From positions 1,240,001 to 1,304,000 of the forward strand of contig CP086683.1 in the NCBI GenBank assembly GCA_030544685.1: a stretch of 64,000 bases of DNA. The letters are read 5' to 3'. This document shows positions 49,971 to 51,437 of the stretch, piece by piece. Below the pieces are notes generated by a model. It ran no database searches, was not told the DNA's origin, and worked only from the letters and a program-made list of their open reading frames with translations. The stretch comes from Pseudomonas sp. B21_DOA. GTDB lineage: Bacteria; Pseudomonadota; Gammaproteobacteria; Pseudomonadales; Pseudomonadaceae. The first letter of the stretch is position 1. Each line of letters opens with the position of its first letter. Both the position numbers and the translations under genes were made by a program.

Positions 49971-50055
49971 TGTGGGAGCGAGCCCGCTCGCGAAGGCATC
50001 AGCACGGTCACTGCCTTGTTGACTGGCCGCCGCTTTCGCGAGCAGGCTCGCTCCT
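49971..50055. repeat. REP pair interrupted by the IS110 element
   Basis: TGTGGGAGCGAGCCCGCTCG faces CGCGAGCAGGCTCGCTCCT. The right unit stops at CTCGCTC-CT, where the insertion sequence begins; its missing end (CT)ACAGACC is found after the element at 51334. Without the insertion the sequence reads GCTCGCTCCTACAGACC. Confidence 0.8.
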
Positions 50056-50069
50056 TGTATGTTCCCCAG

Positions 50070-50265
50070 ACACCAGCATGAATGAGATCTAAGCTCGCTG
50101 GTGCGACATACGAAGATGTGTTTCTGGGGAGACCGATCGCTCCTTAAGGCAGGACTTGCTCCTGACCTTGTCTGTAGAGAGGTCCCCCGCCTCATTGCCC
50201 ACCACGAAGAGTATCGAGAAGCCGACGAGTCGGACTTCGCATTACAAGGTTGCAGTGGCATGAAG
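50070..50265 (+). ncRNA. IS110 bridge RNA (target- and donor-specifying guide RNA)
   Basis: The 5' stem is CACCAGC 50071-50077 / GCTGGTG 50097-50103. The target loop is closed by GGGGAGACC 50126-50134 / GGTCCCC 50180-50186. It holds the left guide TCGCTCCT 50137-50144, identical to the target at 50048-50055, and the right guide GTCTGTAG 50169-50176, complementary to CTACAGAC at 51334-51341. The donor loop is closed by TGCCCAC 50195-50201 / GTGGCA 50254-50259. It holds AGAGTATC 50207-50214, identical to the right end at 51327-51334, and TACAAG 50242-50247, complementary to CTTGTA at 50054-50059. Each loop also carries an inner hairpin. The exact 3' end is a guess. Confidence 0.85.
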
Positions 50266-50322
50266 TTCGAGGTCAGGGGAACCAGGAAGCATTTTTAACT
50301 CAGTTCTCTTGGAGTTGAAAGC

Positions 50323-51318
50323 ATGAACATGCACGTCGGTTTGGATGTGGGATCTCGCACTACAGCGATGGGCTGGCGCAATGGCGGCCGCTTTGCAGGT
50401 CAGTGCAATATCGACCAGACGCCGGCGGGGCGCAAGGCTGCTGTCGGCAAATTGCTTGAGCTCAAGCCGATATCTGTGGTGATGGAAGCCACCGGTATCT
50501 ACTACCTGGACTTGGCCATGGAGCTCGCTGCGGCGGGTTTGCCAGTCTCGGTTATCAATCCGAAGAGTTTTCACAACTTTGCAAAGCTGATGCTGAAAAA
50601 CAGCAAAACGGACGCAATCGATGCCCAATTATTAGCTGAATACGGCGAACGGATGAGCCCAAGGTTGTGGACGCCGCCCACTTCAATACAGCTTGAGCTG
50701 CGTGCTATCGGCCGCCACATCAATCGTTTGACAGGTCACCGCACCCGCGCCAAAAACGAGCTGCATGCGCTAAAAGCTACTCAAACAACACTCCCGATGC
50801 TGATTGAGGATGAAGAAGAGGCCATCAACGCCTTTGACAAACGAATCGAGCGTTTCCGTGTCGCTGGTCGGGCATTGATCGACAACTGCCCAATGTTGAG
50901 CGCCCAGTTTGGACACATGATTGCCGCTCCAGGCATGGGTGAGATCTCAGTATTTGCAGCGCTGGCTGAACTGACGACCTTACCGGTGACGCTTAAATCC
51001 GCGCAGGTTAGCCGCCATGCCGGACTCGATGTCCGACTCACGCAATCAGGAAGCAGCATTGATAAACCCGGCCGGATAAGTAAGGGCGGCAATGCCTATT
51101 TGCGCTCAGCGATGTACATGCCTGCGCTGACCGCCATACGTTGCGACCCGAACGTGAAAGCGTTTTACGAAGCGTTGGTGGCCCGAGGAAAGAGGAAGAT
51201 GCAAGCTATCGTCGCAGTCATGCGCAAATACCTGACCGGACTATGGGCCTGCATGCAGGCCGGAGAAGACTTCGACACGGCCAAGCTTTTTAGCGGTAAA
51301 CACGTCCAAAAAGCTTGA
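50323..51318 (+). CDS. IS110-family recombinase (transposase)
   Basis: 331-aa DEDD-type recombinase guided by the bridge RNA encoded just upstream. The RuvC-like domain has Asp8 (GLDVGSRTT), Glu55 (VVMEATGIYY), Asp97 and Asp100 (SKTDAIDAQLLAEYG). The C-terminal Tnp domain has the likely nucleophile Ser253 in GRISKGGNAYLR. A coiled-coil linker lies between. The protein is full length, so the element may be active. The stop codon overlaps the TTGACC hexamer of the junction promoter. Confidence 0.95.
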   Translation: MNMHVGLDVGSRTTAMGWRNGGRFAGQCNIDQTPAGRKAAVGKLLELKPISVVMEATGIYYLDLAMELAAAGLPVSVINPKSFHNFAKLMLKNSKTDAIDAQLLAEYGERMSPRLWTPPTSIQLELRAIGRHINRLTGHRTRAKNELHALKATQTTLPMLIEDEEEAINAFDKRIERFRVAGRALIDNCPMLSAQFGHMIAAPGMGEISVFAALAELTTLPVTLKSAQVSRHAGLDVRLTQSGSSIDKPGRISKGGNAYLRSAMYMPALTAIRCDPNVKAFYEALVARGKRKMQAIVAVMRKYLTGLWACMQAGEDFDTAKLFSGKHVQKA

Positions 51319-51320
51319 CC
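51315..51320 (+). promoter_or_regulatory. Right-end -35 half of the IS110 circle-junction promoter
   Basis: TTGACC here and TATGTT at 50058-50063 in the left end come together when the element circularises at its CT core. The spacing is 13 + 2 + 2 = 17 bases, ideal for sigma-70. Transcription would start about 50070, the first base before the bridge RNA 5' stem. Confidence 0.75.
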
Positions 51321-51437
51321 GTGAACAGAGTATCTACAGACCAAAACTCCCTGCTTAATTTCATTTTTTTGCAATCGCCCAGCTAAGAATTTACGTTTCT
51401 TAGACGTTTTTCGCCTATTTAAAGACGATTCTTGAAA

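Follow-up and report, generated by a model that had tools for sequence, protein, structure and literature searches.

The window analysed here, a 64,000-nucleotide stretch of Pseudomonas sp. B21_DOA (contig CP086683.1, positions 1,240,001 to 1,304,000), carries an insertion sequence that interrupts one member of a REP pair. The features of the element and of its insertion site, all on the forward strand, are as follows.

49972..49997 (+), partner REP of the interrupted REP pair, GTGGGAGCGAGCCCGCTCGCGAAGGC, read from the sequence and from an aligned copy in L140
50030..50055 (+), left part of the REP that is interrupted, with the left target TCGCTC and the core CT at its end
50048..50055 (+), left target half including the core (t2–t9)
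50054..50055 (+), left CT core
50056..51333 (+), IS110-group element, 1278 bp between CT cores, delimited by three identical copies and an empty site in a relative
50323..51318 (+), IS110 recombinase of 331 aa, with D8, E55, D97, D100 and S242 as candidate catalytic residues
51327..51334 (+), left donor, which is the right element end, AGAGTAT plus core C
51334..51335 (+), right CT core
51334..51341 (+), right target half, CTACAGAC (t8–t15)

The recombinase matched PF01548 (2.1e-22) and PF02371 (2e-16), the DEDD RuvC-like and Transposase_20 domains in Pfam, as well as the NCBIfam model NF033542, ‘IS110 family RNA-guided transposase’ (182 bits against a cut-off of 140); a PDB search matched no solved chains other than those of ISCro4 (4.6e-34) and IS621 (2.8e-27). 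E55, D97, D100 and S242 aligned to IS621 residues reported as essential, while D8 (in GLDVG) falls inside the Pfam match and outside the PDB alignment, the first 59 residues having no match in the PDB at E up to 1. The D, E, D, D and S of the IS110 group are present as candidate catalytic residues. The non-coding ends measure 267 bp upstream and 15 bp downstream of the coding sequence, the long left and short right layout of the IS110 group. The IS1111 layout, with its RNA in a long right end downstream of the gene, is not seen here: the right end measures 15 bp and the guides lie upstream of the gene. Among plasmid records, 2413 matched, all at <60% identity, and no ISfinder name was recovered for the element, the named relatives among the 120 listed of 820 carrying generic names.

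The genome carries three copies of the element, identical across all 1278 bp, at three REP-like ends. When the joined flanks were compared with nine loci, L140 (G033) alone spanned both sides, presenting the same neighbourhood without the element, continuous over the junction and with a single CT, from which it follows that the insertion was precise. Three other loci (L141, L142 and L146) matched the left side only as far as the REP end. The CT core at both ends and the precise insertion are as expected for the IS110 group of the IS110 family.

The 5′ non-coding end would encode an RNA with the following predicted parts.

50070..50265 (+), predicted bridge RNA with presumed ends, from alignment and fold
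50071..50103 (+), predicted stem-loop at the 5′ side of the RNA (z −1.74; in some relatives it is weak)
50125..50189 (+), target-binding loop, comprising an outer stem and an apical hairpin (z −2.95)
50137..50144 (+), left target guide (LTG), UCGCUCCU
50170..50177 (+), right target guide (RTG), GUCUGUAG
50199..50258 (+), donor-binding loop (z −1.42)
50208..50215 (+), left donor guide (LDG), AGAGUAUC, covering core C only
50218..50238 (+), apical hairpin of the donor loop
50241..50248 (+), right donor guide (RDG), AUUACAAG, from sequence and alignment, which could pair with CTTGTAT with one U bulged

The first-pass annotation had read four guide words in this region, and all of them are present and match the target or the element ends as it proposed. 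It placed TCGCTCCT correctly at 50137–50144, but set the other three one base too low; their positions are 50170–50177 (GTCTGTAG), 50208–50215 (AGAGTATC) and 50243–50248 (TACAAG). The suggestion that every guide includes the CT core fails for the LDG, where a G follows AGAGTATC and the match drops to 4 if the core T is included. The RDG is longer than the TACAAG first noted, since AUUACAAG can be set against CTTGTAT of the left end with one bulged U. The perfect 8 + 8 target match described at the outset holds for the window copy, whereas the other two copies differ at outer positions (left flanks TCACTCCT and CTGCTCCT; right flank CTACAGGG in both). In dinucleotide shuffles of 50070–50265, with the left donor scored to core C and the full CT shown alongside, match lengths of 8, 8, 8 (ending at core C) and 6 were reached singly by 65, 34, 87 and 468 of 20,000 shuffles, and all four together by none. 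In 16 of 18 representatives the LDG equalled the right element end; G698 and G759, where A is replaced by G on both sides, are among them, while G591a and G713 have mismatches. These words give a donor loop whose LDG and RDG match the element ends, with so little variation that donor covariation is thin.

Both apical hairpins proposed earlier (CAGGA/TCCTG and CCGAC/GTCGG) occur in the fold, and the target and donor loops are common to 18 distinct non-coding ends in the alignment. In the 32-pair structure, 97.7% of 575 cells were paired and 11 of the 32 pairs had changed on both sides, each value being reached by 0 of 500 shuffles, a result favoured by the fact that this alignment had also served in part to derive the structure. 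Four of the five fold measures were reached by 0 of 500 shuffles and the fifth (further pair types) by 433 of 500; sliding the partners along dropped pairing to 32–50%. The weakest part was the outer stem of the donor loop (helix 4; 91.7% of cells). Folded alone, the 181-nt stretch 50090–50270 was no better than shuffles (z −0.95), while among parts folded singly only the target loop was clearly stable, the donor loop and the 5′ hairpin being less so, and the 5′ hairpins of L125 and L132 were no better than shuffles. In Rfam, none of the 12 matches at E up to 10 attained the gathering score of its family. The alignment and fold support the conserved two-loop secondary structure of a bridge RNA.

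Relatives were gathered by protein and by an 18-base donor-guide pattern, the latter having 44 occurrences, spread over 10 of the 398 Pseudomonas genomes; 41 occurrences were read (two of the other three lie at contig ends in G188 and one is unlisted in G444). The resulting table covers 55 insertions drawn from 17 groups of genomes. A left flank is present for 54 of them and a right flank for 54, and positions are numbered such that t8–t9 is the CT core. Set aside or handled separately before counting were the inner left end of L124, L122 (no right flank; contig end) and L138 (no left flank); L025, L026 and L028–L032, along with a set of partial matches, were unused, being either fragments or located on contigs already represented by a fetched locus. 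In L105, where an assembly gap falls within the element, the ends were read by eye, and neither the broken recombinase frame of G185 nor the gene with one internal stop in G235 was mended or joined.

The LTG matched the left flank in 53 of 54 insertions at t4 and in 54 of 54 at each of t5, t6, t7 and t8, with guide letters that vary (G, A or C at t4; C or G at t5; U or A at t6; C or G at t7). Because the guide letters change, this match is more than conservation. Guides with A at t4 (G267 and PfAR1) were sited at CACTCCT (5/5), those with G at t5 (G020) at CGGTCCT (4/4), the one with G at t7 (G441) at GCTGCT (1/1), and the LTG CCCGACCU of a 56%-identical element from another family (G698) at CCCGACCT (4/4 with a left flank). 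The covariation of guide bases with flanks that the first-pass annotation had named as a check was thus borne out at t4, t5, t6 and t7. Further from these positions, t2 had a guide U opposite C or T in 49 of 50 copies, compatible with wobble, and C on both sides in the other four copies; t3 matched in 39 of 54 and t9 in 50 of 54. In G020 (L124–L127), the last LTG base is a C opposite the core T in 4 of 4 copies, a natural unpaired second core base.

On the right, the RTG matched the flank in 54 of 54 insertions at t8–t11 and in 49 of 54 at t12 (guide U with A, n = 42; guide C with G, n = 7; guide C with A, n = 5). All five t12 misses come from one genome, G698 (L131, L135–L138; RTG GCGCGUAG), such that covariation at t12 holds overall and breaks down in that genome. 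There, the LTG is perfect in the four copies with a left flank despite the RTG mismatch in 5 of 5, and the mismatch means that the right guide would pair over four bases only; perhaps only four right bases are used. Position t13 matched in 36 of 54, with guides carrying A at t13 meeting the expected T in 4 of 13, while t14 and t15 matched in 6 and 7 of 54, respectively. Since t13–t15 are often unpaired, an 8-base right guide is overstated, and the earlier impression of a complete guide programme was too strong.

When guides were swapped among the 17 groups (one guide per genome, the own guides of L102 and L134 not being used), the observed total was reached in 0 of 20,000 trials (left, 0; right, 2; t12 alone, 117; t13 alone, 102), a test that ignores phylogeny; the genomes are related and the insertions not fully independent. 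Identical guide words at different flanks, which the first-pass annotation had taken as evidence against guiding, were seen only outside the inner positions. At the three identical copies in the source genome, the inner left flank is either GCTCCT or ACTCCT and the right one is CTACAG. As a property of the sequences compared, then, a target loop whose LTG and RTG match the flanks, and covary with them, is shown.

Several relatives carry rearranged copies. All four loci of G267 (L093–L096) are 1695-bp composites, in which a second copy of the gene end and right end, 412 bp long, comes after a full element. The internal right end lacks the core T (ATC-G) and the target half CTACAG occurs only after the distal end, so that the composite seems to be mobilised as a single unit. 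In L124 (G020), the left end of a full copy is joined at CT to a 286-bp 5′ piece of the element that comprises a left end and a gene start; this gene start reads CGGT-CTTGATGTT, close to the end CTTGTATGTT.

Most insertions read are at REP-like ends, and insertion flanks were compared with the REP-like ends counted in the same genome, counts that include chance words. The REP dialect forms listed were GCTCACTCC, GCCGGTCC, CCCGACC and GCTCC. G020 holds 113 GCCGGTCCTAC[A/G] ends, against 0, 0, 0, 1 and 0 in five other genomes, and its RTG demands G at t12, which was present in 4 of 4 insertions versus 28 of 100 listed A/G sites (p = 0.006); GCTCCTACA words in this genome were no more common than a reversed control. 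The guide in G366 demands G at t13 (6/6 insertions versus 242/467; p = 0.019) and that in G444 demands T at t13 (2/10 versus 8/310; p = 0.026), with G271 (p = 0.12) and G000 (p = 0.13) in the same direction and above 0.05. In G267, A at t4 is also the usual local REP form (46 of 50 listed of 915), so that the four copies of this genome prove little alone. A single copy in G441 (L105), with the LTG UCGCUGCU equal to its left flank TTGCTGCT, lies outside the usual REP end, beside a REP.

Guide letters follow the local REP form in G267, PfAR1, G020 and G698, as far as the flanks show. In the source genome, the G of the guide is found in just 11 of 100 listed (101 counted) GCTC[A/G]CTCCTACA ends, and the A form is the site of one of the three copies, presumably through a G–T wobble; one copy in the table has a guide G opposite A at t4. 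This disagreement between guide and local REP could reflect recent arrival or tolerance. That guides are reprogrammed naturally in step with the REP dialect of the host, that wobble lets one guide cross dialects, and that the drift of REP and guide amounts to measurable co-evolution is a tentative idea given somewhat less than an even chance, because the guide of the source genome does not follow the local REP form.

Two further sets of candidate positions bear on how the RNA might be expressed and used.

50058..50063 (+), −10-like box TATGTT in the left end, meeting the −35 of the right end in the circle only
51315..51320 (+), −35-like box TTGACC, which overlaps the stop codon and in the circle lies 17 nt from TATGTT
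50178 (+), handshake-guide position A, the same base in all 18 representatives, which could pair with the donor base T left of the core
50249 (+), handshake-guide position G, which could pair with the target base C left of the core

At a circle junction the two boxes would read as a sigma-70-like TTGACC-17-TATGTT. The 17-nt spacer geometry was found in 17 of 18 representatives, with 4–6 of 6 bases at the −35 place; the eighteenth, G713, has 2 of 6 and, by eye, a TTGACC one base further upstream. In the integrated state, the 17 representatives whose left flank is long enough matched 0–3 of the 6 bases at the −35 position (the G185 value was left out because the contig stops in its left flank), and a search of the integrated copy gave no promoter-like site. 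By its geometry, a promoter may be formed where the right end joins the left end. The first handshake positions, A50178 and G50249, could pair as in IS621. The second handshake bases are unpaired in this element and both pair only in G698 among the 18 representatives, and the t7 change in G441 breaks the first handshake pair.

That the element is an IS110-group insertion sequence whose 5′ non-coding end is predicted to encode a bridge RNA that would pick a REP end and the element's own joined ends around a CT core, is almost certain. A very unlikely reading is that the region serves mainly as a 5′-UTR or antisense-regulated leader for recombinase translation, as in ISPpu9, with the guide matches secondary. 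It lies directly upstream of the coding sequence and folds, and a structured 5′-UTR with an antisense sRNA is described for ISPpu9 (PMC8450116), yet a leader would leave unexplained the four matches to the target and the ends as well as the covariation with flanks. A leader role and a guide role could coexist. It is still less probable that the recombinase protein recognises REP ends and that the REP-like words derive from captured pieces of REP and guide nothing. Insertion of IS110 elements into REPs had been described at a time when no RNA was known (PMC1525189), and the preponderance of REP-like ends among the insertions would fit such recognition; against it, guide letters shift with the flanks while the adjoining RNA is conserved, the words are complementary halves at two separate positions of a covarying loop, and the G020 element, with a protein 80% identical, uses a different REP dialect that is spelled by its guide. 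Chance matches picked by eye can be given practically no weight: the words are short and three coordinates were off by one, but no shuffle of 20,000 reached all four, and chance does not account for the covariation.

The bridge-RNA reading rests on a well-described class. In two reports, IS110 bridge RNAs, guide–target covariation over thousands of elements, the junction promoter and REP insertion are all presented (PMC11208160, PMC11208158). The same reports give IS621 of E. coli the features seen here, namely a DEDD plus serine recombinase, a bridge RNA in the left end with two guide loops, a CT core, an LDG that ends at the core C (A123–C130 pairs up to it; PMC11208158), a discontiguous RDG, a junction promoter and a REP target. 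The elements differ in REP type and guides, in a right target guide with at least 5 bases matched in 49 of 54 copies here versus 4 in IS621, and in an RDG read here as 8 nt with one bulged base versus 9 nt. By sequence, the closest solved recombinase is that of ISCro4 (9t56), compared as a protein alone. ISPpu9, ISPpu10 and ISPa11, compared by description only, are likewise IS110-family elements inserted in Pseudomonas REPs (PMC1525189). The direct repeat reported for ISPpu9 is AG, equivalent to CT on the opposite strand; for ISPpu10 and ISPa11, bridge RNA predictions are displayed (PMC11208160). ISPa11, for which a seekRNA is reported, is of the IS1111 type with its RNA downstream of the gene (PMC11187229), in contrast to the upstream position here.

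By analogy with IS621, we infer transcription, RNP formation and catalysis. The element would leave as a circle, in which the joined ends build the promoter-like TTGACC-17-TATGTT that is missing from the integrated copy and that may act as a working promoter. Once folded, the RNA would have a hairpin on its 5′ side followed by the target and donor loops, both backed by compensatory changes, and would bind the recombinase. A REP-repeat end is likely picked as target by two short target guides flanking the CT core, while the donor guides would pair with AGAGTATC and CTTGTAT, and the recombinase would then join both DNAs at CT with no sequence lost.

Because bridge RNAs, REP targeting and junction promoters are published, the element is a further member of a known bridge-RNA class. 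What is added here is a set of naturally occurring guide variants that can be read beside the variant REPs; among the papers listed by an open-access literature search, none was seen to trace guide changes within a single subfamily from one REP dialect to another. The t4, t5/t12 and t13 variants (G267, G020 and G444) have open recombinase frames with 75–97% identity to the window recombinase, the recombinase of the G698 set is 56% identical, and in the t7 variant (G441) an assembly gap covers the gene. The predicted guides would account letter by letter for landing at one point of a REP, and the variants form a natural panel (t4, t5, t6, t7, t12 and t13) with matched targets, from which it may be learned which bridge-RNA positions bear specificity and how REP-targeting elements keep up with changing repeats.
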